A stretch of DNA of 24,680 nucleotides from the IMG/VR virus record IMGVR_UViG_3300046804_004241, positions 1-24,680 of that record; one strand, written 5' to 3'. Shown here piece by piece: positions 2,160 to 24,659 of this stretch. This DNA is from a virus. A program made the translations under genes and the position numbers. The notes under the pieces are model-generated. The model did no database searches. It saw only the letters and a list, made by a program, of their open reading frames with translations, and was not told the DNA's origin. How positions within the stretch are numbered: the stretch's first letter is position 1; each line of letters begins with the position of its first letter.

Positions 2160-2232
2160 TGGGCTGTAGTTCAGTTGGTAGAACACTCGACTGTTAATCG
2201 AGATGTCGCAGGATCGAGACCTGCCAGCCCAG
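2160..2232 (+). tRNA. tRNA-Asn(GTT)
   Basis: The acceptor stem TGGGCTG/CAGCCCA is perfect. The anticodon stem CTCGA/TCGAG encloses loop CTGTTAA (anticodon GTT), and the T stem GCAGG/CCTGC is intact. The discriminator is G, as expected for Asn, and no 3' CCA is encoded. The T loop is ATCGAGA, so the normally invariant T54 is A. This tRNA is alone on the + strand, far from the main array. Confidence 0.92.
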
Positions 2233-2236
2233 CAAG

Positions 2237-2251: not shown

Positions 2252-2332
2252 ATGTTTAAATTTATTAAAAAGATGTACTTGCGTAGAAAAATAAAGAAGT
2301 ACTTAAAAAAAGAAAAAAGGTTTATTTATTAA
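2252..2332 (+). CDS. 26-residue highly basic leader peptide
   Basis: A short ORF opens 6 nt after a TGATATAAT promoter and ends in a TAATG overlap with the first SGNH gene. About half its residues are Lys or Arg, with interspersed Tyr, Phe and Ile (it begins MFKFIKKMYLRRK). No Shine-Dalgarno precedes it. It may be a leaderless ORF whose main job is to couple translation to the gene at 2332, or a nucleic-acid- or membrane-binding peptide. Coding status rests on position and overlap only. Confidence 0.45.
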   Translation: MFKFIKKMYLRRKIKKYLKKEKRFIY

Positions 2333-3132
2333 TGATAAAGGATATCCATTCTCTACCAGTCAAAGGTCTTGATGGGAAAAGTCTTGCATATACCAGCCAT
2401 AAATGGCAATGTGGTGATGAGTTATTTGAATATGCTAGAAATAGTGATGGGTATAGATCAGAAGATTTTCAAAAAAATCCAAAATTTATTTTTGCAGGAT
2501 GCTCTGAAACTTTTGGAGAATCTGCTGAGTACGAAACAACTTGGGCATATAAGTTATTTAATAAAATAAAATCAGAAGACGATGTGTACTGTAATATTGG
2601 ATTGCCAGGATTGGACATTAGTTTAGTTATTTATCACGTATTTCTTTTCATTGAAAAGTACGGAAAGCCTGAAACAATATTTATGCTTGCTCCACAATTT
2701 AATAGGCTAATAGAGACTCATAAAGATAAAACGACAACTTTAATGCTAAGTGTAGATCCAGAAGATGGTTCACATAAAATGGACAACATAGAGTATGTAG
2801 ATGAAAGAGTCATTGATGCTGTCAGATCTGTTAATCTTCTTCAAATAAAGTCGTTTGAAGAATTTTGTAGATTATCTAATATTAATTTAATTTGGGGAAC
2901 TTGGTGTCCAGAAAGTAATAAAAAAGTACAAAAAGAGCAGATTTTTAATAATTATATTAATATCCTTGTAACTAAAGACATTGCTGATCTTGCGATAGAG
3001 TTAGGCTATGATGTTAAAAATATTAAGGTGAGTAGGTCTGATGGAAATCATCATGGTGAAGTTTTCCATGACCATTGGGCAAAACTTTTTAATAGTGAGT
3101 ATTTAAAACGAAAAGAATTAGTAAATGACTAA
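2332..3132 (+). CDS. SGNH-hydrolase-like protein, paralogue 1
   Basis: A 266-residue protein. FAGCSETFG (Ser58) matches the block I nucleophile strand of SGNH/GDSL enzymes, and DGNHHGEVFHDHW (Asp237 and the following His residues) matches the C-terminal Asp-His block. Between them lie CNIGLPG (possible block II Gly) and an EKYGKPETIFMLAP strand. The family removes acyl groups from, or transfers them between, sugars and lipids. It is one of three paralogues at this locus sharing GCSxxxG, a strand KYGKPDxIxxLxP, an SxTW segment and DxxHxGxx[FY]HxxW. They surround a carbamoyltransferase, which suggests modification of one shared glycan. The substrate is unknown. Confidence 0.7.
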   Translation: MIKDIHSLPVKGLDGKSLAYTSHKWQCGDELFEYARNSDGYRSEDFQKNPKFIFAGCSETFGESAEYETTWAYKLFNKIKSEDDVYCNIGLPGLDISLVIYHVFLFIEKYGKPETIFMLAPQFNRLIETHKDKTTTLMLSVDPEDGSHKMDNIEYVDERVIDAVRSVNLLQIKSFEEFCRLSNINLIWGTWCPESNKKVQKEQIFNNYINILVTKDIADLAIELGYDVKNIKVSRSDGNHHGEVFHDHWAKLFNSEYLKRKELVND

Positions 3133-3919
3133 TGTTAATAAGAAAAAATTATTACGCATAACTCTGTCTAAAGATCTAGAGGAATTATCTCCTTTTTCAG
3201 ATACCCCAACTATACCTGTTATTGGTAAACACTTGTTATTTGCTGGATGCTCTTTTACATCTGGAGACTCACTAGAGAAAGAACAGACCTGGGCCTGGAA
3301 ACTGTATGATCAGTTAACGAGTTCTCAAAAAAACAAGGATACATTTTTTAATGTCGCAGGCTCTGGTATGAGTATTACCGAATCTATAAATCAAGTTTTT
3401 AAATATTGCCATAATTTTGGAAACCCAGATGCTATTTTCCTTTTATTACCTAGTCCAGGCAGAGACGGCAAGCATTGTGGCAATAGTGATCAGGGATATG
3501 AATCATTGCAAATCTTAATCTATACATCTTATTTCTATCTTGAAAGTTTTTGCAAAACAAATAATATACAACTTATAGCCTCTACCTGGTATAAAAATAT
3601 TAAAGACATTGGAGATGAGTTTCTTCCATCTAAAGAAGTAAAATATTATCCAGGAACTAAAACAGAGAGACCTGACTGGAGTGTACAGTTAAATGAACAT
3701 GATGATAATCTGCTAGAAAATATTTTAAAAGATTTTGATACATTTAAAACATATACAGAAAAAGAATTGATTTCAAAAGTTTCAGAGTATCATATTTTAA
3801 AAGATAAGCAGGATAGGGAATATTCTCTAGTAGCCAAAGATGATATTCATCCAGGCACATCTTTCCATGATTTTTGGAAAGATTTTTTCTATAGTTTTTA
3901 TGTGGAGGATCAATGTTAA
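3125..3919 (+). CDS. SGNH-hydrolase-like protein, paralogue 2
   Basis: A 264-residue protein overlapping the previous gene by 8 bases. LLFAGCSFTSGDS places the nucleophile at Ser43. NVAGSGMS fits block II, NPDAIFLLLPSPGRDG fits block III, and DDIHPGTSFHDFW gives the catalytic Asp and His. Of the three paralogues this is the closest to canonical SGNH block V (DxxHPG). It is followed, with a 7-base overlap, by the carbamoyltransferase gene, whose GGAGG site lies inside this gene. The substrate cannot be read from the sequence. Confidence 0.7.
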   Translation: MTNVNKKKLLRITLSKDLEELSPFSDTPTIPVIGKHLLFAGCSFTSGDSLEKEQTWAWKLYDQLTSSQKNKDTFFNVAGSGMSITESINQVFKYCHNFGNPDAIFLLLPSPGRDGKHCGNSDQGYESLQILIYTSYFYLESFCKTNNIQLIASTWYKNIKDIGDEFLPSKEVKYYPGTKTERPDWSVQLNEHDDNLLENILKDFDTFKTYTEKELISKVSEYHILKDKQDREYSLVAKDDIHPGTSFHDFWKDFFYSFYVEDQC

Positions 3920-5346
3920 TTCTTGGAATCAATGAAACATCTCATGACGCATCTGTATCTTTAATTGAAGATGGCAAAATTTTATTTGCAGGACATGCTG
4001 AAAGATATAGTAAACAAAAAAATGACTGGTATGTAAATAATGAGTTAGTAAAAGACGCATTACAATATGGAACACCAGATGCAATAGCATATTATGAAAA
4101 GCCATTACTCAAAGCCTCTAGGCTATTTTTAAAAGGTGGTGCAGGTGAGTGGAAACCAAAATTTGATATAGAAGATATTCCTAGAAAATCTTTTAAACAT
4201 CATGAATCTCATGCAGCAGCAGGATATTATACTAGCAAATTCAACGATGCCGTCATTGTTATTCTTGATGCTATCGGAGAATACAATACTTCAACAATTT
4301 GGACTGGACAAGATAGTAAATTAAAACTGGTTAAAAAGTTCAATTATCCTTTTAGTTTTGGTTTATTTTATTCTGCTTTTACAAAATTAATTGGGCTTAT
4401 GCCTAACCAAGAAGAGTACATTATGATGGGTATGGCTGCATACGGTGATTGGAAAAAATATTATCAAAAGGTTGAGGAATATTTTCCAATAAGAGACTAT
4501 CAGAAATATAATTTTCATAAGGGTATTATTGACTGGGACGAACCAATTACAGAACAAGATAAGTTTGACATCGCAGCAGCAGTTCAAAAAGTTTATGAAC
4601 TTAGACTGTATGATTTTATGAATTTTGCAAGGGCTAAGACACAAAAGAATAACCTAGTGTTTATGGGTGGGTGTGCATTAAATAGTAAAGCCAATACAAT
4701 GCTTTGGGACATTTTTGATGATGTTTGGATAATGCCAAATCCAGGAGATGCTGGAAGTTCTTTAGGTGCAGCAGCAGCAATGTATGGCAAACATATTGAA
4801 TGGAAGACACCATATCTCGGCTATGACCTTGGGGGAGAGTATCCTGTTCAGGAAATTGTGGACGGTATATTAAAAGATGGCATAGTAGCAGTAGCAACAG
4901 GAAGAGCAGAATATGGTCCAAGAGCATTAGGAAATAGAAGTATTCTGGCTGACCCAAGAGATCCAAACATTAAAGATAAGGTAAATAATATTAAGCAAAG
5001 AGAGTTATTTAGACCATTTGCTCCAGTAGTACTTGAGGAACATGCATCTAAATGGTTTGATATGGACTTTACAAGCCCTTATATGCAATATACAGTTAAA
5101 TGTTTACAGCCAGATAAGATACCCTCAGTAGTTCATTTTGATGGAACATCTAGAGTTCAGACTGTAAATAGAGAGCAGCATAGAGGTTTGTGGATGGCTA
5201 TTAATAAGTTTTACTTACAAACTGGAGTTCCAATTCTATTAAATACAAGCCTTAATATTAAAGGGCAGCCATTATTAAATGATGAGAATGACATTAATGC
5301 TTGGGAAAAAGAATACAATTCTAAAATTATTGGGGGGATCAGATGA
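3913..5346 (+). CDS. NodU/CmcH/TobZ-type O-carbamoyltransferase
   Basis: A 477-residue protein. The Kae1-like N-terminal domain begins MLILGINETSHDAS and carries the metal-binding motif HHESHAAAGYY (residues 96-106). MGGCALNS and PNPGDAGSSLGAA fit its later nucleotide-binding strands. The C-terminal domain has RAEYGPRALGNRSILADPR (331-349), which binds carbamoyl phosphate, and LLNTSLNIKGQP. Family chemistry: carbamoyl phosphate plus ATP yields carbamoyl-adenylate, and the carbamoyl group passes to a hydroxyl. Members near 480 residues are on the short side. SGNH genes on both sides, and no visible base-modification genes, argue for a sugar acceptor here, although phage homologues that carbamoylate modified DNA bases are known. 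Confidence 0.9.
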   Translation: MLILGINETSHDASVSLIEDGKILFAGHAERYSKQKNDWYVNNELVKDALQYGTPDAIAYYEKPLLKASRLFLKGGAGEWKPKFDIEDIPRKSFKHHESHAAAGYYTSKFNDAVIVILDAIGEYNTSTIWTGQDSKLKLVKKFNYPFSFGLFYSAFTKLIGLMPNQEEYIMMGMAAYGDWKKYYQKVEEYFPIRDYQKYNFHKGIIDWDEPITEQDKFDIAAAVQKVYELRLYDFMNFARAKTQKNNLVFMGGCALNSKANTMLWDIFDDVWIMPNPGDAGSSLGAAAAMYGKHIEWKTPYLGYDLGGEYPVQEIVDGILKDGIVAVATGRAEYGPRALGNRSILADPRDPNIKDKVNNIKQRELFRPFAPVVLEEHASKWFDMDFTSPYMQYTVKCLQPDKIPSVVHFDGTSRVQTVNREQHRGLWMAINKFYLQTGVPILLNTSLNIKGQPLLNDENDINAWEKEYNSKIIGGIR

Positions 5347-6179
5347 CAGTCAATACTAAACTAATAGTTAATAAAGTAAAAGAATTGATCAATAACAACT
5401 ATTTATTTGATAAATTAGAATATTTTGTTGAACCAAATAGTTTCTTTACCATGCATCCAAAAGAAATTCCTATGTTTGAAATGATGAAGAAAGACCCAAT
5501 AGATGATTTATCTATTGAATATAAATATAACAATAATGGTTTTAGGTCTGATGATTTTAAAACAGAGCACAATAAAAGGCATTTACTTTTTTCTGGTTGT
5601 TCTGAAGGAGAGGGGATTGCTGCTGATATAGATACTGTCTGGAACAAAATTATTTATAATAGTTTAAATATCAATAATGAATATAGTGGATTTTTTAATG
5701 TGTCTATAGATAATTTTGGATTTCATAAAATTATTTTTAATGTAATTAACTACATATCTAAATATGGCAAACCAGATGAACTTATTATTTTATTTCCAGA
5801 AGTTGCTAGAGTTAATGAATGGAATATAAATAATGATTCGTATATGCAAAACTGGGCTAACTCATCCAAATTAGATTCTGAACATGATCAAAAAATATTC
5901 ATGGATGCTTTAATTAATTTTATACCTTTTATGAAATTATTTGAATCTTATTGTGATACTAATAATATTAAATTGACATGGAGTACATGGAGTATGACAG
6001 AAGGTCAAGTATATTCTATGCTTAATACATTTAAACATTTTTTTGAAATAGACTACACTCTAACAGATGGATTAGATCAGTCTAAACAAGTCAGGCGTGA
6101 CGGGCATCAGGGAGAGTTCTATCACAGATTATGGGCTCAAAATTTTATTAATAGGATAAAGTATGAAAAACACAATTAA
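5343..6179 (+). CDS. SGNH-hydrolase-like protein, paralogue 3
   Basis: A 278-residue protein starting in an ATGA overlap with the carbamoyltransferase. LLFSGCSEGEG puts the candidate nucleophile at Ser87. KYGKPDELIILFPE is the block III-like strand, and RRDGHQGEFYHRLW is the Asp-His block with one residue fewer between Asp and His than in paralogue 1. About 45 extra N-terminal residues distinguish it. It is the most AT-rich of the three. It overlaps the next gene by 17 bases. Confidence 0.66.
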   Translation: MTVNTKLIVNKVKELINNNYLFDKLEYFVEPNSFFTMHPKEIPMFEMMKKDPIDDLSIEYKYNNNGFRSDDFKTEHNKRHLLFSGCSEGEGIAADIDTVWNKIIYNSLNINNEYSGFFNVSIDNFGFHKIIFNVINYISKYGKPDELIILFPEVARVNEWNINNDSYMQNWANSSKLDSEHDQKIFMDALINFIPFMKLFESYCDTNNIKLTWSTWSMTEGQVYSMLNTFKHFFEIDYTLTDGLDQSKQVRRDGHQGEFYHRLWAQNFINRIKYEKHN

Positions 6180-6816
6180 TGGAATAAAGGGGTCTGACTT
6201 TTGGATTAATTCTGCCGATTTGGACTGGATATCTTTACAAAATGCATCTAATTTAATGATACATTGGAGAGTGTATGGATATATTAAACATTTGTGTTAT
6301 AATTTTGGAATTTTTCCAGTTAACAAATATGTCCTTGATCTATATCCAAAACCAGAATTAATGTCTATTGTAGATAATAGGGTTACATTTAGGCAAAGAA
6401 CTCATGCTGAGATCTGGGTTCAGCCAGAAGAAGACGGATTATATGCATTAGATAAATGTTGGCAGAGACAGTTCTATCCTTCGCCAAATAAAATGGATAA
6501 TGATAAATGTTTTGATGCAACCTATAGGTTTTATATTCCATGGGTACCTATATCATTAGGAAGTTTTAGCATTAAAACAGTTAATGATGAAGAGACTCCG
6601 TTTTTAGTTAATCAGAAAGAATATTCACTGATGCCACCATCAGAATTAACTGATTTTTATCAAACAGATTTTGTAGATTTCATGATAAAAAAAGATGGTA
6701 GCCACATGCATGATGCAAGATATGGTATTATAGAGATTGGTACTCCAATGTATGATATTTCAGTAGAGATGAACGAGGGGCAAATTGAAAAAGTTATTCA
6801 ACAATACGGAAGATAA
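6163..6816 (+). CDS. Phage conserved protein of unknown function
   Basis: A 217-residue protein with many Trp, Tyr and Phe residues and alternating strand-like segments (for example RTHAEIWVQPEEDGLY and CFDATYRFYIPWVPISLG), compatible with a beta-rich jelly-roll or cupin-like fold. No catalytic motif is evident. It overlaps the SGNH gene before it (17 bases) and the gene after it (32 bases), so it is part of the same operon. Its position next to a second beta-rich protein suggests the two act together, but no function can be assigned. Confidence 0.6.
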   Translation: MKNTINGIKGSDFWINSADLDWISLQNASNLMIHWRVYGYIKHLCYNFGIFPVNKYVLDLYPKPELMSIVDNRVTFRQRTHAEIWVQPEEDGLYALDKCWQRQFYPSPNKMDNDKCFDATYRFYIPWVPISLGSFSIKTVNDEETPFLVNQKEYSLMPPSELTDFYQTDFVDFMIKKDGSHMHDARYGIIEIGTPMYDISVEMNEGQIEKVIQQYGR

Positions 6817-7525
6817 AGAACTAATATTTGTTCCTAGTGTTCCAGATGAAAGATTATTGCCACCAGAACCAGCATATCGTAAATTACCTCAGTGGTATAA
6901 AGATTTAACTACATATGGAACAAGCAATGATCTAGCCAATCTAGAACCAATTAATGATAGAGGTGCGGATGGATCCAATGTTTCAACCAAACTATGTCTT
7001 CCATTCCAGGATGCCATGACTCTTGGGTATATGTATTGCCTAGAAGATGATGTAAAGGTGGAACTGGGTAGAGATGGAAAGCCAAAAGTATCTTGGAGTA
7101 AAGATATTCTAATTTTAGATAAAAGACCTAAAGTAGATTTAGCAATTCCTAGAGATGTCCACCCGTTGCATTTTGGTGTAAAGATGAACTGGTTTTATGA
7201 AACTCCGAAAGACTATTCTTTGTTGCTGACGATGCCTATAAATAGGCCAGATCTTCCATTCTGGACACCATCTGGAATTGTGGATGCAGATATTTGGGGT
7301 CTTCCAGCATTTCTTCCATTTTTTATTAAGCGGGGATTTGAAGGAATTATTCCTATGGGAACGCCAGTAGTACAAATGATTCCAATTAAAAGGGAACCTT
7401 GGACATTAGTAACCGATTATAGTGAAGAAGCATTAGAGCGTCATAATCTTATGTCAGAAAATAGACGCTCCCATATTACGGGGCATTATAGAAAATTTGC
7501 TTGGCGTAAAAAATCTTACAAGTAG
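6785..7525 (+). CDS. Phage conserved beta-rich protein (DUF6065-like)
   Basis: A 246-residue protein read from a TTG start at 6785, which has GAGGGG (6775-6780) four bases upstream; the next in-frame ATG is far inside the protein. It carries PPEPAYRKLPQWYKDL near the N terminus. In the C-terminal half are INRPDLPFWTPSGIVDAD and GTPVVQMIPIKREPW, a pattern I associate from memory with DUF6065-type proteins widespread in aquatic phages. Their biochemical function is not known to me. The neighbourhood of oxygenases and glycan genes is the only clue. Confidence 0.6.
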   Translation: MKKLFNNTEDKELIFVPSVPDERLLPPEPAYRKLPQWYKDLTTYGTSNDLANLEPINDRGADGSNVSTKLCLPFQDAMTLGYMYCLEDDVKVELGRDGKPKVSWSKDILILDKRPKVDLAIPRDVHPLHFGVKMNWFYETPKDYSLLLTMPINRPDLPFWTPSGIVDADIWGLPAFLPFFIKRGFEGIIPMGTPVVQMIPIKREPWTLVTDYSEEALERHNLMSENRRSHITGHYRKFAWRKKSYK

Positions 7526-7533
7526 TAATAGGG

Positions 7534-7539
7534 TATAAT
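7534..7539 (+). promoter_or_regulatory. -10-like TATAAT before a 2OG oxygenase gene
   Basis: TATAAT lies in the gap after the stop at 7525. No TG extension and no -35 box are visible. A start near 7546 would give a leader carrying AGAAAGG (7551-7557) before the ATG at 7564. Confidence 0.4.
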
Positions 7540-7563
7540 AGAATGAATAGAGAAAGGTACAGC

Positions 7564-8208
7564 ATGGAAATGCAACAACATAAACCTCATAAATTTTTTG
7601 AGCGTTTTTTAAATAATGATTTGAACGAGTTATCAGAGTTTCTGCAAAATCAATATAAGTTAATTGAAGAGGCTAAACTTCGTGGAGTAGATGAATTAAA
7701 CGAAAAAGATAAGGCATGGCTTTCATCTGGAAGCATTTCTACAGTAAAATGGACAGAATATAATGTCTTTCAGTTCTATCATCCATCGCTGCATAAGTTA
7801 TACAAGAGTATTTCTGATATGGTTAGAGATGCTTGTGAATATTATGGCGTTAATTTTGCAGAACAAAATTATTATATCCAAGGATGGTTTAATGTTAATC
7901 ATGCTAAAGTTGGCAAATTAGATTGGCATGATCATGGAAAACCATATGCACCACAATTTCATGGATATTATTGTGTAAGTGCAGAGCCATCTGTAACTCA
8001 TTACAGATTATTCAATTCTGATGAAGGAATTATTGATAATCACAATATTAATAATAGGGCTATTGTTTCAGAAATGGGACATCCGCATGCAATGGGAGAC
8101 TGGGATTGGGAAGGTCCAAGAATTACAATTGCTTATGATATTATTCCTGGAGAAATGCTACAATACAATGAGCATGCACCACAACAGCATTGGATCCCTT
8201 TAAATTAA
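7564..8208 (+). CDS. 2OG-Fe(II) oxygenase, HxH type
   Basis: A 214-residue protein. The double-stranded beta-helix core runs from YYIQGWFNVNHAKVG to PRITIAYDI. Candidate iron ligands are His122 and His124 (WHDHG) and His173 or His175 (GHPHAMG); Arg186 is the 2-oxoglutarate-binding candidate. HGYYCVSAEP corresponds to the YYV-P strand of the 2OG-FeII_Oxy_5 type (PF13759). The ATG at 7564 is preferred to the one at 7543, because AGAAAGG sits 6 nt before 7564 and the upstream ATG lies only 3 nt after a TATAAT box. It directly precedes a glycosyltransferase. Confidence 0.78.
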   Translation: MEMQQHKPHKFFERFLNNDLNELSEFLQNQYKLIEEAKLRGVDELNEKDKAWLSSGSISTVKWTEYNVFQFYHPSLHKLYKSISDMVRDACEYYGVNFAEQNYYIQGWFNVNHAKVGKLDWHDHGKPYAPQFHGYYCVSAEPSVTHYRLFNSDEGIIDNHNINNRAIVSEMGHPHAMGDWDWEGPRITIAYDIIPGEMLQYNEHAPQQHWIPLN

Positions 8209-9051
8209 ATGAAAAAGATAGTTGTATTTCTTCATGCTTACAAGAGTAAAGCATTAAGAGAATCAGTAGACTCATTATTACAAAATCATAGTGGGTCTAC
8301 TGTGCTATCTGTTCATGTTTACGATAGAAATAACTTAAAGAGACAAGAATCTTTTTCCGATGTTTCGTATGAACATATAATGTGGGATTCTACTCAAACA
8401 AGGTTTGATTGTCAGAATAATATATTGCAACAGGAAAATGGAGATTATTTTCTTTCAATTGATGGGGCAAAACTATTTGCTAAAAATTGGGATACAGAAT
8501 TAATTAACTTGTTAGGGAAAGATGAAATTTTATCTGGCGACAGCATGATTGAGTTTAGCAAGAAAGATCCTAAATTTTTTATTGAAAAAACGAAAACACT
8601 TACTGATAAAAAAATATCTACAGACTGGATAGATAGAAAGTTTGTTTTTTCCTATTTTGATGTATTTAACAAATTGCCAAGCGTTCATAGACTTAAGTAT
8701 TACGGAGAAGAAGAAGTATTATCTCTTTTTTGTTTTAATCGTGGAATTAAAATTTATGCAATATCAAATAGTATAATAAAAGATATTGAAAAAGATTTAT
8801 TAAGTTACGACTACATTCCATTTTCTATTACACACAATTATAATTTAGTTATAGATATGATTAAAAATAAAGAGAATATCTTTTTTGGTGATCCAATAGA
8901 TATTGCAGCCATTGAGTCAAAATTTGATTATAAGTTTTCAGAACTTTCCTATCATCCATTTCAAGAGAATGATATTGAGTACAACCCCAATACTTCATTG
9001 GATGATATGGAGGGGGAGAGATTCTTCGGCGGTATTAAGAGTATTTACTAA
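8209..9051 (+). CDS. GT-A glycosyltransferase, GlcNAc-transferase (PF11397)-like
   Basis: A 280-residue protein starting immediately after the stop of the oxygenase gene, with no clear ribosome site, so probably coupled. The N terminus VVFLHAYKSKALRESVDSLL and the segment TRFDCQNN...GDYFLSIDG...NWDTELINLL (residues 64-102) follow the order of the Skp1-hydroxyproline GlcNAc-transferase family: an R-aq run, GE-YFLqiD, then WD-LI-L. Asp85 occupies the nucleotide-sugar/metal site, with Gly replacing the usual Ser-His after it. Inference: it sugars a hydroxylated residue made by the neighbouring oxygenases. A generic GT2-like enzyme is the alternative. Confidence 0.62.
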   Translation: MKKIVVFLHAYKSKALRESVDSLLQNHSGSTVLSVHVYDRNNLKRQESFSDVSYEHIMWDSTQTRFDCQNNILQQENGDYFLSIDGAKLFAKNWDTELINLLGKDEILSGDSMIEFSKKDPKFFIEKTKTLTDKKISTDWIDRKFVFSYFDVFNKLPSVHRLKYYGEEEVLSLFCFNRGIKIYAISNSIIKDIEKDLLSYDYIPFSITHNYNLVIDMIKNKENIFFGDPIDIAAIESKFDYKFSELSYHPFQENDIEYNPNTSLDDMEGERFFGGIKSIY

Positions 9052-9053
9052 TA

Positions 9054-9062
9054 TGATATAAT
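9054..9062 (+). promoter_or_regulatory. Extended -10 promoter (TGA-TATAAT)
   Basis: TG at 9054-9055 and TATAAT at 9057-9062. Sixteen bases separate the -10 box from the ATG at 9079, leaving a short leader with AGGGGA (9070-9075). Confidence 0.6.
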
Positions 9063-9078
9063 AGAAAATAGGGGAACT

Positions 9079-9633
9079 ATGTTACAGAAACCGATCATTA
9101 TCGAAAACTTTATCACTCCAGAAGATGCACAATTTCTTATGGACGAGATGCTTAATCCTACTGAAACCAATCCATATCCAGAATATTATAAGAAACGTTT
9201 TGGTGGAACTGGATTACCATATAGTGAAAAAGTAAATAAAGTAGTAAAAAAGTATGCTCTAAAGGCAAACAAGGTTTTACAAGAAGCAAATCCAGAAGAA
9301 GTAGAAGAGATTAAAACATTCAAGGCTTTTGGGTGTGTTTGGAATCCTGGAGGTTTTGGTGGGGTACACATGGATGACCAGGATCCAGAAATGTTTATTG
9401 ACTATAGTTCTGTAGTTTATCTTAATGATGATTTTACTGGTGGACAGATCTTTTTTCCAGTATTAGGGTTTGAATATACTCCTAAAAAATATTCTGCAGT
9501 ATTTTTTATTAGTGATGGAGACAGATGGAAGCACGGCATCACTCCAGTAGAAACTGGTAAAAGAGGTACACTGCTACTAATGCATACAATTAGCCCTGAA
9601 GAGGTTGATCCAGATTTAGATGGAGAAGAATAA
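9079..9633 (+). CDS. 2OG-Fe(II) oxygenase, prolyl-4-hydroxylase-like
   Basis: A 184-residue single-domain protein. It has GGVHMDD (His97, Asp99), SSVVYLNDDFTGGQIFFP (the strand typical of the P4Hc family), WKHGITPV (His152) and GKRGTLLL (Arg162 for 2-oxoglutarate). All expected iron and co-substrate ligands are present. These enzymes couple decarboxylation of 2-oxoglutarate to hydroxylation, most often of proline in proteins. The acidic tail DPDLDGEE ends in a TAATG overlap with the next oxygenase gene. It has its own TGATATAAT promoter. Confidence 0.88.
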   Translation: MLQKPIIIENFITPEDAQFLMDEMLNPTETNPYPEYYKKRFGGTGLPYSEKVNKVVKKYALKANKVLQEANPEEVEEIKTFKAFGCVWNPGGFGGVHMDDQDPEMFIDYSSVVYLNDDFTGGQIFFPVLGFEYTPKKYSAVFFISDGDRWKHGITPVETGKRGTLLLMHTISPEEVDPDLDGEE

Positions 9634-10457
9634 TGAAACATCCAGAGGTAGTATTTCAAGATAGCAAGTTTTGCATGTATAAAAATCATCCAGATAAAGA
9701 AAATATTGTCTGGAAATACATGGATAAAGAAGAGTATTTGAAATGGGAAGATGAATTTTTTGCAGAAGCAGTTCTCTTCGAGCCTTTTATTATTGATGAA
9801 TTTTATAGTGAAGAAGATTTTGAGGAATTAAGAGATTACCTACAGTCTAAAAGATTAGAGGACATTGCCTATACAAAGCAAATGAATAAATGGGAAGACC
9901 ATGTTGCATTGCCACAAAAATTTATAGATATAGCAATTGACAATGTTAGAAAAGCAATTGGTACAGATGATGTAGAGTTGGGATATTATCTATTTGCTCA
10001 TCATCAAATAACAAAAGAGGGACGAAAGCCATTTTTACAAGTACATTTAGATTGGTCGCCAGGAACATATATGGTTGACTTACATTTAGGTGGAAATAAA
10101 GATTGGTCTATAATTTGCCATGATAAAGAATTTAGAACAAAACCTAATCAGGCGGTTATTGTTCAACCAGAAATAGACCTTCATTACCGTGAACCATGGG
10201 GTGGAGATGATCTAAATGAGTATCATGATTTGGTATTTTTTCATCTAATTAGAAAAAGACATTGGAAAAATAAACATGGTGTTGAATTTATTAATAATGA
10301 AGGCTTCTTAAATTTTCAAAAACAAAGATTAGAGATGTTTGAACCACATTATTTTAATTTAATAGATTCAAATCCAAATCTTCCAATTACAACTATTGGC
10401 GATGATAGAGGGTTAACAGAAGATGATAAGCGATTGTTAGGCGTGGAAAAGGCGTAA
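9633..10457 (+). CDS. Divergent 2OG-Fe(II) oxygenase-like protein
   Basis: A 274-residue protein. The core is LQVHLDWSPG (His138, Asp140), VDLHLGGNKDWSIICHDKEF, then IDLHYREPWGGDD (His184, Arg186) and LVFFHLIRK. This retains the HxD...H pattern, but the 2-oxoglutarate Arg is less certain than in its neighbours (Arg186 or Arg207). About 120 N-terminal residues, including FEPFIIDEFYSEEDFEELRDYL, resemble the usual helical lead-in of this superfamily. The first gene-specific segment (FQDSKFCMYKN) is unlike the other copies. It starts in a TAATG overlap and is probably co-translated with the preceding oxygenase. Confidence 0.7.
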   Translation: MKHPEVVFQDSKFCMYKNHPDKENIVWKYMDKEEYLKWEDEFFAEAVLFEPFIIDEFYSEEDFEELRDYLQSKRLEDIAYTKQMNKWEDHVALPQKFIDIAIDNVRKAIGTDDVELGYYLFAHHQITKEGRKPFLQVHLDWSPGTYMVDLHLGGNKDWSIICHDKEFRTKPNQAVIVQPEIDLHYREPWGGDDLNEYHDLVFFHLIRKRHWKNKHGVEFINNEGFLNFQKQRLEMFEPHYFNLIDSNPNLPITTIGDDRGLTEDDKRLLGVEKA

Positions 10458-10458
10458 A

Positions 10459-11133
10459 ATGTTTACATATGAAAAATTAGCAGACGGAATAGTTTATTAT
10501 AGGAATATATATAACAATCCACAAAAGATTATAGATGATATTGAAAAAATGGAATCTGCCATTAAACCAAGTATAGATGATGGTTCCTATGATCATACAA
10601 GATCTTATTGGGAAGATTGGGACTATGAAACTAATGATGGGGAGAGACTAGTTTTTTGTAAAAAAGCATGGATTCCTAGCCCAGAAAATATTGAGAGCAA
10701 TGATAAATTTTATAAAGAAAAAATGCAAGTGTCTGTAGAGTTATTTTCTGGATTAGGAAAAGCATTTGAGCATTATTCTACAATAATGTATCCATATGCT
10801 GGAAGAAATATTAAGGGTAAAGTTGACCAAGTTAGTATTTTAAAATACGAAAAATCTGGATACCTTCCTGAACACATTGATCAAGGAATTAGTAGCAGAG
10901 TTTTGTCAGTAGTAGCATATCTTAATGATGACTATGAGGGTGGAGAAATTACTTTTACTAGTGTTGGTAATGGCGGAATAACAATTAAACCAGAGGCTGG
11001 AAGTGCTGTATTTTTTCCATCAAACTATGTAGGATCTCATAAGATAAATGAAATTAAAAGTGGAATTAGATATGCAGTTCCAAACTGGTATCATAACAGA
11101 ATAGATAAAGTAGAATCGGATGGTAGCGAATGA
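10459..11133 (+). CDS. 2OG-Fe(II) oxygenase, prolyl-4-hydroxylase-like
   Basis: A 224-residue protein with the full set of ligands: YLPEHIDQG (His139, Asp141), GSHKI (His194) and SGIRYAVPNWYH (Arg204). SRVLSVVAYLNDDYEGGEITF and PEAGSAVFFPSN are the characteristic P4Hc strands. Of the six copies it is closest to the textbook phage/cyanophage P4Hc. It begins one base after the stop of the preceding oxygenase gene. The next gene starts in an ATGA overlap, so transcription continues toward the endolysin. Confidence 0.9.
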   Translation: MFTYEKLADGIVYYRNIYNNPQKIIDDIEKMESAIKPSIDDGSYDHTRSYWEDWDYETNDGERLVFCKKAWIPSPENIESNDKFYKEKMQVSVELFSGLGKAFEHYSTIMYPYAGRNIKGKVDQVSILKYEKSGYLPEHIDQGISSRVLSVVAYLNDDYEGGEITFTSVGNGGITIKPEAGSAVFFPSNYVGSHKINEIKSGIRYAVPNWYHNRIDKVESDGSE

Positions 11134-15276: not shown

Positions 15277-15558
15277 ATGAATAAGCATGAATGGAAAGAT
15301 AACGGTGCATGTTTTGATTATGACACCGATTTATTCTTTGACAAGTATGAAGAAGATCAACTTCTTCGTCCAGCAATAGATAAATTGTGTTCAACTTGTC
15401 CAGAAAGAAAGCAATGTTTTGCTGTTGGAGTTTCTCAAAAAGAATGGGGAGTTTGGGGCGGAATTTATTTAGAAGGTGGTCAAATTTCTAAGGAGTTTAG
15501 TGATCATAAAACAAAGCAGGCATGGGCAGAAACATGGCAACACTTAACATTGGATTAA
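15277..15558 (+). CDS. whiB: WhiB-family Fe-S transcriptional regulator
   Basis: A 93-residue protein with the four cluster ligands Cys12 (NGACFDYD), Cys38, Cys41 and Cys47 (LCSTCPERKQC), followed by the G[VI]WGG turn (GVWGG, 58-62). DTDLFF after the first Cys is also typical. WhiB proteins occur in Actinobacteria and their phages and bind a 4Fe-4S cluster and the primary sigma factor. The C terminus after GVWGG lacks the basic DNA-binding tail of most host WhiB proteins. A sigma-binding decoy that alters host transcription, as described for mycobacteriophage WhiB, is therefore possible. Confidence 0.93.
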   Translation: MNKHEWKDNGACFDYDTDLFFDKYEEDQLLRPAIDKLCSTCPERKQCFAVGVSQKEWGVWGGIYLEGGQISKEFSDHKTKQAWAETWQHLTLD

Positions 15559-21568: not shown

Positions 21569-22186
21569 GTGCAACTATTTAAAGATAGTAATAGTACTGA
21601 TTATCAAGAATCGTTTGTTCTTAGTGTTTTAAAAGAAAAACGCAATGGTTTCTATTTAGAACTTGGTTCTGCTTGGCCCAAAAAAGAAAACAATACATAT
21701 TTGCTTGAAACTGTGTATGATTGGCAAGGTATTGGATTTGAAATTGATAAAGACTTAGTAGATGAATATAGATCTGTACGCAAGAATCCAGTAATACATA
21801 CAGATGCTATAACTTTTGATTATAGAAAATATTTTAAAGAAAATGATGTTCCTAAACAAATAGATTATTTACAAATGGATCTTCATCCAGCCTATAGTAC
21901 TTTACAGGCATTAAGAAATCTACCATTAGACGAATATAGATTTTCTGTAATAACTTATGAACATAATAGATGGTGGGATGAAGATTTGCATAAACGCATT
22001 CAAGAAGAATCTCAACGCATCTTTAAGTCATACGGGTATACGCTAGTTGTTGAAAATTTATTAGATAGAGTTAACCCTTTGGAAGATTGGTGGGTAGATC
22101 CTAATGCAGTTCCATATGAAAATTATTCTAAGATGATATCTAAAAATAAGTACTATCGCCATCTTTTAGATAAATACTTAGATTAA
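21569..22186 (+). CDS. FkbM-like SAM-dependent methyltransferase
   Basis: A 205-residue protein read from GTG at 21569. GFYLELGSA (27-35) is the SAM-binding strand and turn, YDWQGIGFEID (50-60) ends in the acidic residue that binds the ribose, and IDYLQMD (98-104) fits the FkbM D-[IL]K-[IM]D strand. FkbM enzymes methylate sugar or polyketide hydroxyls, so a glycan target would suit this neighbourhood. It converges with, and overlaps by 4 bases, the - strand oxygenase gene. Confidence 0.75.
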   Translation: MQLFKDSNSTDYQESFVLSVLKEKRNGFYLELGSAWPKKENNTYLLETVYDWQGIGFEIDKDLVDEYRSVRKNPVIHTDAITFDYRKYFKENDVPKQIDYLQMDLHPAYSTLQALRNLPLDEYRFSVITYEHNRWWDEDLHKRIQEESQRIFKSYGYTLVVENLLDRVNPLEDWWVDPNAVPYENYSKMISKNKYYRHLLDKYLD

Positions 22187-22815
22187 AATAACACTATAGA
22201 TATATCACCTTCATAGACTGTCTGGTCTATAACAGCATCATCCCCTACATCAAAAGTAAAAAACATTGGTAAGGTATGTCTAATACCGCTTACATGTGGT
22301 TTAATAGCATGGGTATATCTACTAGGAAACATGACAAGTGTACCAGCCTTGATCTGAGGCTGATAGTTTTCAAAATCTGGGAAAAATATTTCACCACCAA
22401 CATACTGATCTGTTAAATAAAAGATAGTCGTAATATTGTATCTATAAAAACCACCAATAATTGCTGGCTCCCTTAATCTTGTTTCAGAATCACTATGTGG
22501 AGCCATTCCACCACCAGGTAGCCAATTAACTAAGTGTGCTGGAACAACTGGAGATGATTTTACTGGTACATTAAACTGATCAGAATAATGCTTCTTTACT
22601 TCTGTAAAAGAAATCTGTTCGTATTTAGTTAATAATTCATTAATTGTGGAATCTTTAATTTTCCATCTTTCAATTGGCCCATGAGCATCTTGCTGATTAA
22701 TAAAATTACTTAATGTCGGTATATCATTTAGATCAACTAAATTATTAACAATAAAAATTTTATCTTTTGAGTAACCAATTTTATTATATTCATCCATATA
22801 CTTTGTATAATCCAT
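22183..22815 (-). CDS. 2OG-Fe(II) oxygenase, prolyl-4-hydroxylase-like
   Basis: A 210-residue protein. GGGMAPHSDSE gives His107 and Asp109, ITTIFYLTDQYVGGEIFFPD is the P4Hc strand, PSRYTHAIKP gives His169 and VSGIRHTLPMF gives Arg179. All ligands are present. The gene is transcribed from a TGATATACT box that ends 6 nt before the ATG, so the mRNA should be leaderless. It lies downstream of the tRNA array on the same strand. It is the sixth 2OG oxygenase of the window. Confidence 0.9.
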   Translation of the reverse strand: MDYTKYMDEYNKIGYSKDKIFIVNNLVDLNDIPTLSNFINQQDAHGPIERWKIKDSTINELLTKYEQISFTEVKKHYSDQFNVPVKSSPVVPAHLVNWLPGGGMAPHSDSETRLREPAIIGGFYRYNITTIFYLTDQYVGGEIFFPDFENYQPQIKAGTLVMFPSRYTHAIKPHVSGIRHTLPMFFTFDVGDDAVIDQTVYEGDISIVLF

Positions 22816-22830: not shown

Positions 22831-22833
22831 TTG

Positions 22834-22906
22834 CGTCCCTGGCAGGATTCGAACCTGCAACCTAACGGGTAGAAACCGTTTGCGCTATCCGTTGCGCCAC
22901 AGAGAC
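22834..22906 (-). tRNA. tRNA-Arg(TCT)
   Basis: Acceptor GTCTCTG/CAGGGAC (one T-G pair), anticodon stem AACGG/CCGTT around loop TTTCTAC (anticodon TCT), T arm GCAGG-TTCGAAT-CCTGC, discriminator G. It reads AGA, a frequent codon here. Last gene of the array. Confidence 0.95.
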
Positions 22907-22910
22907 TTGG

Positions 22911-22981
22911 CTCCCTGACCTGGATTCGAACCAAGATACCCGCCTCCAAAGGGCGGTGTCCTACCGTTAGACGATCTGGGA
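22911..22981 (-). tRNA. tRNA-Gln(TTG)
   Basis: Anticodon stem CCGCC/GGCGG around loop CTTTGGA (anticodon TTG), T arm CTTGG-TTCGAAT-CCAGG, discriminator G. The acceptor TCCCAGA/TCAGGGA has an A-A mismatch at pair 5:68. It reads CAA. Confidence 0.92.
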
Positions 22982-22982
22982 G

Positions 22983-23055
22983 TGCCCCTCAATGGATTCG
23001 AACCATTGCTGTATGGAGTTTAAGTCCATTGCCTCTACCGCTGGGCTAGAGGGGC
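22983..23055 (-). tRNA. tRNA with anticodon TAA (Leu), class I body
   Basis: Acceptor GCCCCTC/GAGGGGC, anticodon stem ATGGA/TCCAT around loop CTTAAAC (anticodon TAA), variable loop of only 5 nt (ACAGC), T arm AATGG-TTCGAAT-CCATT, discriminator A. Bacterial tRNA-Leu normally has a long variable arm; this one does not. A73 and A37 fit leucine. One base separates it from tRNA-Gln. Confidence 0.88.
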
Positions 23056-23060
23056 TTTTG

Positions 23061-23134
23061 TGCTTCATGTAAGACTCGAACTTACAACCTCATGATCCTA
23101 AGTCATGTGCCTCTACCAATTGGGCCAATGAAGC
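23061..23134 (-). tRNA. tRNA with anticodon TAG (Leu), class I body
   Basis: Acceptor GCTTCAT/ATGAAGC perfect, anticodon stem CATGA/TCATG around loop CTTAGGA (anticodon TAG, G37 as in tRNA-Leu), short variable loop, T arm GTAAG-TTCGAGT-CTTAC, discriminator A. Like its neighbour it lacks the long variable arm of class II leucine tRNAs. It reads CUA. Confidence 0.88.
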
Positions 23135-23135
23135 G

Positions 23136-23215
23136 TACCACACCTTGGAATCGAACCAAGCATGTCTAAGACGACGGATTTACAGTCCGCTGCTCCTCCT
23201 TGGAGCATGTGTGGT
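23136..23215 (-). tRNA. tRNA-Tyr(GTA)
   Basis: Acceptor ACCACAC/GTGTGGT, anticodon stem GCGGA/TCCGT around loop CTGTAAA (anticodon GTA), a 13-nt variable arm (CGTCTTAGACATG) and T arm CTTGG-TTCGATT-CCAAG, discriminator A. It keeps the class II shape, in contrast to the two leucine-type tRNAs beside it. Confidence 0.94.
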
Positions 23216-23216
23216 A

Positions 23217-23329
23217 AGTGTCTAACTTTATCGTTGCGTCCTAGTTAGACTTAGGCACAGAGGCAGTGCACTGCATGTGAGGATGTATGATCTACACTTT
23301 CGTGTTACAGGGACATAATCTACGCTCTG
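23217..23329 (-). ncRNA. Structured non-tRNA segment 1 within the tRNA array
   Basis: 113 bases between tRNA-Gly and tRNA-Tyr with no ORF. On the - strand it holds ACAC-GAAA-GTGT (a GNRA-type hairpin), the perfect palindrome GCAGTGCACTGC (23263-23274), and a long hairpin GTCTAAC...GTTAGAC that ends just before ACTT and the 5' end of tRNA-Tyr. No tRNA T-arm signature is present. It could be an independent small RNA or a processing spacer. Confidence 0.4.
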
Positions 23330-23400
23330 AGCGAATAGTCAGAATCGAACTGACGCCTCCAACTTGGAAGGATGGGGCACTGCCACTATGCAATATTCGC
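23330..23400 (-). tRNA. tRNA-Gly(TCC)
   Basis: Acceptor GCGAATA/TATTCGC, loop CTTCCAA (anticodon TCC) in stem CCATC/GTTGG with a T-T mismatch at 30:40, T arm GTCAG-TTCGATT-CTGAC, discriminator T. It reads GGA. Confidence 0.9.
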
Positions 23401-23570
23401 AAGTGCCAACCACGACTTTGATTCTTAATCTAAACCATCTGTTGGCTGTCGTACCTAGTTCTCGCTTCATCATCTAATCCATGAGCCTGAACGCTTTCAC
23501 TAAACGGCTGGAACACTGTAAGTTTCAGTACAACTATCTCCACATAGATTGTTCAGATCTATGTTTTGAG
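23401..23570 (-). ncRNA. Structured non-tRNA segment 2 within the tRNA array
   Basis: 170 bases between tRNA-Glu and tRNA-Gly without an ORF or T-arm. On the - strand, in order: ACATAGAT-CTGAACA-ATCTATGT (8-bp stem, 7-nt loop), CGTTT-AGTGA-AAGCG, a GTTC...GAAC arm, and GCCAAC...GTTGGC (23441-23446 with 23405-23410) enclosing GATT-AAG-AATC. The last arm ends at ACTT before tRNA-Gly, as segment 1 does before tRNA-Tyr. Confidence 0.42.
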
Positions 23571-23642
23571 TATCTCCAACGGGAGTCGAACCCGTCTTGC
23601 CAGATTGAAAATCTGGAGTCCTAACCAATAGACGATGGAGAC
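23571..23642 (-). tRNA. tRNA-Glu(TTC)
   Basis: Acceptor GTCTCCA/TGGAGAT with a G1-T72 wobble, anticodon stem CCAGA/TCTGG around loop TTTTCAA (anticodon TTC), T arm ACGGG-TTCGACT-CCCGT, discriminator A. It reads GAA. Confidence 0.93.
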
Positions 23643-23668
23643 AAACTTTACACTATTTAATTATTTAG

Positions 23669-23742
23669 TACACCAGGTAGGACTTGAACCTACGATCTTC
23701 AGTATATAAGACTGATGCCTTAACCAACTTGGCGACTGGTGC
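23669..23742 (-). tRNA. tRNA-Ile(TAT)
   Basis: Acceptor GCACCAG/CTGGTGT with a G1-T72 wobble, anticodon stem TCAGT/ACTGA around loop CTTATAT (anticodon TAT), T arm GTAGG-TTCAAGT-CCTAC, discriminator A. It reads AUA directly; most bacteria use a lysidine-modified CAT tRNA instead. First tRNA of the array. Confidence 0.92.
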
Positions 23743-24156: not shown

Positions 24157-24186
24157 ATTATATCAAATTTTTCTATTTGATGTCAA
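24157..24186 (-). promoter_or_regulatory. Near-perfect promoter for the candidate ncRNA
   Basis: On the - strand, TTGACA (24186-24181), an 18-base spacer ending in TGA, then TATAAT (24162-24157). The -35 box lies inside the last codons of hsp20. Initiation is expected near 24150. Confidence 0.8.
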
Positions 24187-24577
24187 TAGTTTTTGGTAGT
24201 TTATCTTCTGGGATATGTTTTTCAAGCACGATAGTCAGGATACCATCCTTGAACTCAGCCCCCATAACTTCAACAAACTCAGGAAGGGTAAAGATATCAG
24301 TGAACTTGCGTGTAGCAATTCCACGATGTAGATACTCTGAACCCTCTGGAAATTCCATCCCCTTGCTTTCGCCCTTAACTGTAAGTTTACGACCATCAAG
24401 CGAAATGGAAACATCATCCTTAGTGAAACCTGCAAGAGCAAACTGAAGGAATTGTTCCTTTTCGTTTATCTTAACAATGTTATAAGGTGGATAGTTTGTT
24501 GTATTTTGTACCTTTGCAATTGTGCTAAAGGTGTTGAAGAATGGATCATTAAAAAGATCCAATGCTGATTTAACCAT
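24173..24577 (-). CDS. Hsp20/IbpA-like small heat shock protein
   Basis: A 134-residue protein. The alpha-crystallin domain spans about 30-118: PPYNIVKINEKEQFLQFALAG, DVSISLDGRKLTVKGE, the IbpA-like YLHRGIATRKFTDIFTLP, and the late GILTIVLEK strand. The C-terminal IDI (131-133) is the I-x-I anchor for oligomer assembly. AAGGAGG lies 5 nt before the ATG. These ATP-independent chaperones hold unfolding proteins; phage copies are often linked to virion assembly under stress. The mRNA leader of ~48 nt is GC-poor apart from a CCCAAAATTGGG palindrome. Confidence 0.95.
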   Translation of the reverse strand: MVKSALDLFNDPFFNTFSTIAKVQNTTNYPPYNIVKINEKEQFLQFALAGFTKDDVSISLDGRKLTVKGESKGMEFPEGSEYLHRGIATRKFTDIFTLPEFVEVMGAEFKDGILTIVLEKHIPEDKLPKTIDIK

Positions 24578-24631
24578 ATTTGCCTCCTTTTAAGCGAGTT
24601 AAATACCCCCCAATTTTGGGCAGGTAATATA

Positions 24632-24659
24632 ATTATAACACATTGTACTTTAAAGTCAA
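24632..24659 (-). promoter_or_regulatory. Promoter for hsp20
   Basis: On the - strand, TTGACT (24659-24654), a 16-base spacer ending in TGT, then TATAAT (24637-24632). It combines a -35 box with an extended -10. Confidence 0.78.

Follow-up and report, generated by a model that had tools for sequence, protein, structure and literature searches.

In textbooks and reviews, bacterial tRNA-Leu is a class II tRNA. It is listed as such in a review of non-canonical tRNAs, in which phages are unmentioned (PMC7609411), and a survey of viral tRNA genes leaves variable arms aside (PMC6409571). Elements that count for the E. coli LeuRS include A73, the A15-U48 Levitt pair, G18G19 and A20a; the sequence and folding of the variable arm are uncorrelated with leucylation, and E. 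coli tRNA-Leu variants devoid of the anticodon arm and the variable arm are still active (PMC9976931). A15-U48 was essential in an E. coli selection.

The window, i.e. the whole stretch of DNA analysed here, is a virus record of 24,680 bases with 34% GC, and contains two tRNA-Leu genes with class I architecture. A short-loop gene is on record from Mycobacterium mucogenicum and M. phocaicum, in a tRNA cluster in which tRNA-Leu(TAG) has a short loop and the other isoacceptor copy has the normal large loop (PMC6582537). The M. mucogenicum gene resembles the window tRNA-Leu(UAG) in anticodon, short variable loop and location in a dense tRNA cluster, but the short loop is given one sentence in that paper, with no analysis of identity, spread or charging. 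This sentence was the only earlier description of class I tRNA-Leu found in the accessible literature, which leaves most subscription journals outside, and an earlier account may exist. Class I tRNA-Leu of phages and bacteria appears almost undescribed, and the window pair are new members of it.

Phage relatives are present in public records, where they are annotated plainly as tRNA-Leu. The tRNA-Leu genes of Felixounavirus, Bixzunavirus (mycobacteriophage cluster C), Certrevirus CR9 and Streptomyces phage Alone3 are likewise class I, with a D arm of the type GCCCAA..GGYAGAGGC in most, and differ from the window genes in their hosts and, in some, in an encoded CCA. Metazoan mitochondrial tRNA-Leu also misses the long variable arm and is specified mainly by A73 and A14 (PMC9976931), but it is organellar, is served by a mitochondrial LeuRS and is unrelated to the short form of bacteria and phages.

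Structure and leucine identity of the two genes

Eight tRNA genes form a tightly packed cluster on the minus strand of the window, in the order Ile-Glu-Gly-Tyr-Leu-Leu-Gln-Arg, and a ninth lies away from it:

23668-23742, minus strand: tRNA-Ile(UAU), in the cluster (ARAGORN; Rfam)
23570-23642, minus strand: tRNA-Glu(UUC), in the cluster (ARAGORN; Rfam)
23329-23400, minus strand: tRNA-Gly(UCC), in the cluster (ARAGORN; Rfam)
23135-23215, minus strand: tRNA-Tyr(GUA), class II with a long variable arm, adjoining tRNA-Leu(UAG) (ARAGORN; fold)
23061-23134, minus strand: tRNA-Leu(UAG), class I, 74 nt, A73 at 23061 (ARAGORN; Rfam, 64.1 bits)
22983-23055, minus strand: tRNA-Leu(UAA), class I, 73 nt, A73 at 22983 (ARAGORN; Rfam, 62.2 bits)
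22908-22981, minus strand: tRNA-Gln(UUG), in the cluster, directly downstream of the Leu pair (ARAGORN; Rfam)
22833-22906, minus strand: tRNA-Arg(UCU), in the cluster (ARAGORN; Rfam)
2160-2233, plus strand: tRNA-Asn(GUU), away from the cluster (ARAGORN; Rfam)

ARAGORN placed the Leu genes at 22982-23055 (taa) and 23060-23134 (tag) on the minus strand, and the Rfam tRNA model, whose gathering score is 29 bits, matched both over their full length at the scores listed. Each has a leucine anticodon, a complete cloverleaf, a purine at position 37 and an acceptor stem composed of Watson-Crick pairs throughout, with no G3-U70; an encoded CCA is absent from both. The isolated UAG transcript has a minimum-free-energy fold other than the cloverleaf, though its stems are complete.

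The anticodon stem and the T stem are separated by exactly 5 nt in both genes, read from the sequence as ACAGC in tRNA-Leu(UAA) (23012-23008) and AGGUU in tRNA-Leu(UAG) (23090-23086). A hidden class II arm or an intron was ruled out by this spacing. With 5 nt each, the genes fall outside class II, defined by a variable region of at least 10 nt, and inside the class I tRNA-Leu group, defined by a loop of 4-7 nt together with the leucine identity core and a C12-G23/C13.A22 D arm (CC/AG type). A reading made from the sequence only had noted the anticodons TAA and TAG, variable loops of about 5 nt, A73 and the purine 37, and the long arm retained by the adjacent tRNA-Tyr, all of which agree with the present data; the Rfam covariance-model matches leave 5-nt loops, with which no class II arm is possible.

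Class II bacterial tRNA-Leu of the E. coli type shares with these genes the anticodons, A73, A14, G18G19, A20a, a 3-bp D stem with unpaired 13.22 and a Levitt pair 15-48 (identity elements: PMC9976931), and differs in having a variable region of at least 10 nt in place of the 5-nt loop. A73, A14, G18G19, A20a and unpaired 13.22 are present in both window genes. The D arm of tRNA-Leu(UAG), GCCCAAUUGGUAGAGGC, has a 3-bp stem with C13.A22, A20a and A15-U48, and the identity set of this gene is complete. That of tRNA-Leu(UAA), GCCCAGCGGUAGAGGC, likewise has a 3-bp stem with C13.A22 and A20a, and its set is complete except that G15-C48 replaces A15-U48, a double change common to 8 of 29 class I UAA genes. 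When identity features were scored in all tRNAs predicted within the fetched loci, 120 of 143 class I and 152 of 168 class II tRNA-Leu genes had the full leucine set, including unpaired 13.22, as did 4 of the 1735 remaining class I tRNAs. As A20a and unpaired 13.22 are specific to leucine, a change of anticodon in some other class I tRNA was rejected as the origin of the main group.

The sequence-only reading had further raised a possible reassignment of UUA and CUA, which together account for 318 of the 543 leucine codons of the window (UUA 232, CUA 86; 59%). The window proteins were compared with 1139 distinct homologous segments (at most 90% identity) from viral loci, many of them from related phages, and homologue codons that were themselves UUA or CUA were ignored. 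The mean frequency of leucine among these viral homologues was 0.39 at UUA and 0.41 at CUA codons of the window, as compared with 0.43 at CUU and 0.41 at UUG; at isoleucine codons it was 0.05-0.07 in the same masked test. In this comparison, which that reading had itself proposed, UUA and CUA matched leucine of the viral homologues as often as CUU and UUG did, and both codons mean leucine in the window genes, with no sign of reassignment. It is extremely improbable that both tRNAs are charged with another amino acid and reassign UUA and CUA during infection. The missing class II arm is the one point in favour of such charging; against it, leucine alignment at UUA and CUA equals that at other leucine codons, A73, A14, A20a and unpaired 13.22 are leucine features that class I tRNAs of other kinds almost never have, the acceptor stems show neither G3-U70 nor any other foreign signature, and a change in the meaning of 318 codons would leave leucine at 3% of residues.

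Occurrence in phages and on bacterial chromosomes

An IMG/VR scan with a pattern admitting both classes and the UAG anticodon gave at least 119 stretches. Together with two cultured-phage loci, this Leu-selected sample contained 89 class I and 96 class II tRNA-Leu genes, the class I genes having the anticodons UAG, UAA, CAA, GAG and CAG. Since the first sample was chosen on Leu, a second sample of viral contigs was seeded on tRNA-Tyr. Its 101 tRNA-Leu genes comprised 29 of class I, 71 of class II and one intermediate, and no short form was found among 88 tRNA-Ser and 111 tRNA-Tyr genes of these contigs. A stem check left 26 class I and 69 class II tRNA-Leu, with short Ser at 0/77 and short Tyr at 0/105. 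The short form is therefore specific to Leu.

A match to the gene of Cronobacter phage CR9 is present in at least 228 cultured-phage records, most of them from mycobacteriophages and phages of Escherichia, Salmonella and Shigella. Class I tRNA-Leu was checked gene by gene in Streptomyces phage Alone3, CR9, Escherichia phage ESCO50 (grown on E. coli DH5alpha) and Rhodococcus phage Francesca, and Mycobacterium phage Tyke has three adjacent class I Leu genes. The short loop had been taken for an oddity peculiar to this phage; with such frequencies it is a common phage architecture. No plasmid relatives of the UAG gene were found. The tRNA content is labile among close relatives of the window phage: L320, whose Hsp20 is 97% identical, has only Arg and Ile tRNAs in the available stretch.

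A strict-pattern scan of 84,980 species genomes gave 28 stretches, most of them in dense tRNA arrays of 10-32 genes and some solitary, in actinomycetes and Flavobacterium. In the order that includes Streptosporangium, class I tRNA-Leu(UAG) is frequent: a looser scan, with rows read by eye, gave a class I match in 22 of 61 genomes and a class II match in 3, the others having no pattern match. About 7 genomes in the order to which the lake actinobacterium G004 belongs have class I and most have class II, and class II predominates in the phylum at large among the matches listed. A phage-only trait was ruled out by the actinomycete chromosomes and some Flavobacterium.

The complement of Streptosporangium sandarakinum was determined using the Rfam tRNA model and ARAGORN. 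Five Leu genes were found, of which GAG and CAG are class II and UAG, UAA and CAA class I, with no second copies found. A smaller pattern check showed UAG alone to be class I in G004, G266 and G213, UAG and CAA in G014, G234 and G277, and UAG, CAA and UAA in G094, G113 and G002. This series suggests a stepwise spread of class I across the isoacceptors. The UUG and CUA codons of these actinomycetes need class I tRNAs; hence, judging from gene content, the class I form is evidently charged by a bacterial LeuRS. The premise of a class II bacterial tRNA-Leu does not hold universally, since class I is in use on several actinomycete chromosomes, and the suggestion that the window tRNAs may be charged by the host LeuRS through other identity elements is strongly supported by the retained identity set, the dispensability of the arm (PMC9976931) and the sole-copy use in S. 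sandarakinum.

Class I tRNA-Leu is thus a frequent form in phages, and in some actinobacteria one to three isoacceptors normally take this form on the chromosome; its identity core is intact, and the long arm is optional for bacterial-type tRNA-Leu. Arm length is unsafe for assigning the isotype of a tRNA or for inferring codon reassignment.

Some further variants were observed. In Streptosporangium and relatives (L148/L228, G002, G094, G113), class I is also the form of the tRNA-Leu that reads UUA, which corresponds to the developmental regulator bldA of Streptomyces. In Flavobacterium and related Flavobacteriia (L130, L137, L140, L145, L157), tRNA-Leu(UAG) has a 5-nt loop and a D arm of the class II type, GCGAAAUGGUAGACGC, and the short loop there is probably a separate arm loss; in this group, G008 has retained a class II copy as well.

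D-arm type, selection and function

Most class I Leu genes (104/143) have C12-G23 with C13.A22, whereas class II Leu genes have G12-C23 with G13.A22 or A13.A22, and not one of 168 class II genes is of the C12C13/A22G23 type. Tabulated against class, G23 gave 116/27 and 3/165 for class I and class II, respectively, counts that ignore descent. A core tree was built excluding the D arm and the variable region. It requires many class changes, and a single origin of the short form is not supported. The supported branches hold nine pairs of rows with one member in each class, and with only nine independent pairs the number of events is uncertain; among them G23 went in the same direction in ~6.6 and in the opposite direction in 0.1 (median sign-test p 0.016). 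The D stem would have been rebuilt to pack against the short loop. This change is not obligatory, since the short Flavobacterium genes retain the class II type of D arm.

The 143 class I tRNA-Leu genes have base pairs in 98-99% of their stem cells, and a single position may show as many as six pair types, which shows that the stems are held by selection and excludes chance. Decay of the arm in degenerate, non-functional tRNA-Leu remnants, with which the labile tRNA content of close relatives such as L320 would agree, is therefore very unlikely; the short loop is also kept by close homologues of both genes in other phages, and in actinomycete chromosomes the short form is the sole copy of its kind.

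The window genes are best read as genuine leucine tRNAs with a class I architecture common to phages and some actinobacteria, charged by the host LeuRS without a variable arm and reading UUA and CUA (probability about 0.9). This reading draws on the architecture, the retained identity set, the leucine meaning of UUA and CUA, the spread and the sole chromosomal isoacceptor use, as obtained in this analysis, and on the dispensability of the arm for E. coli LeuRS, as taken from the literature. Both transcripts would be expressed, processed and charged. The cluster transcript would be cut by the host RNase P and 3' nucleases, and CCA would be added by the host CCA enzyme. The host LeuRS would then leucylate the tRNAs via A73 and the D-arm/D-loop core (A14, G18G19, A20a, the Levitt pair 15-48 and unpaired 13.22), leaving the variable arm unused, and the charged tRNAs would decode UUA and CUA, which end in A and account for 59% of the leucine codons in this 34% GC phage. 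A short loop is compatible with leucylation because bacterial LeuRS, unlike SerRS, ignores the variable arm. Given that the Ser tRNAs of the same phages are never short in the unbiased sample, the class I genes provide natural support for the in vitro view that the variable arm is needed by SerRS and not by LeuRS.

The simplest view of the short form in phages is neutral freedom, the arm being unread by LeuRS; compactness may also be the reason, as may avoidance of enzymes that recognise class II tRNAs. Selection of the class I form to evade tRNA-directed defence or toxin enzymes of the host that recognise class II tRNAs or the variable arm, so that leucine decoding continues when host tRNA-Leu is cut or blocked, is unlikely. 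Phages often carry tRNAs against tRNA-directed defence (cited for tRNA arrays in PMC12803027), class I makes up more than a quarter of phage tRNA-Leu and is common in phage-like tRNA arrays of bacterial contigs, and the Mycobacterium tuberculosis toxin MenT3 has a preference for tRNAs of serine, which belong to class II (PMC11541572). However, free-living actinobacteria carry the class I form chromosomally, so that evasion is unneeded as an explanation, the long arm is retained in the Ser and Tyr tRNAs of these phages, and no toxin targeting tRNA-Leu via the variable arm was identified in this analysis. It is also rather unlikely that the arm loss and the switch to C12-G23/C13.A22 together form a recurrent adaptive remodelling that hides phage tRNA-Leu from host enzymes by which class II tRNAs are recognised, be they nucleases, toxins or modification enzymes, and that some actinobacteria adopted, or retained, as their normal form. 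Phages that carry the class I form include some that infect E. coli DH5alpha and M. smegmatis.

Other features of the window

Two spacers of the cluster, 23216-23328 (113 nt) and 23401-23569 (169 nt), gave no Rfam match and contain no listed ORF of 70 aa. The tRNA-Ile(UAU) at 23668-23742 (minus strand) would decode AUA directly, without a lysidine-modified CAU tRNA; the window has 131 AUA codons, and tRNA-Ile(UAU) also occurs in several related phages (e.g. L320).

Close to the cluster, a match to the ROSE_2 RNA thermometer at 24571-24637 (minus strand) falls exactly within the 5' leader of the phage Hsp20 gene (24173-24577). The match is weak (18.9 bits against a gathering score of 65, E 0.82) and its folding energy is not unusual, so that only its placement is suggestive.

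A WhiB-like protein, recognised by eye at 15277-15558, hints at an actinobacterial host. A row of genes of small-molecule or glycan type lies at 2332-11133 and 22183-22815. It includes a carbamoyltransferase (phrog_1601) at 3913-5346, which has at least 575 relatives among viral contigs, and a 2OG-Fe(II) oxygenase-like protein at 22183-22815; other ORFs resemble oxygenases by eye.
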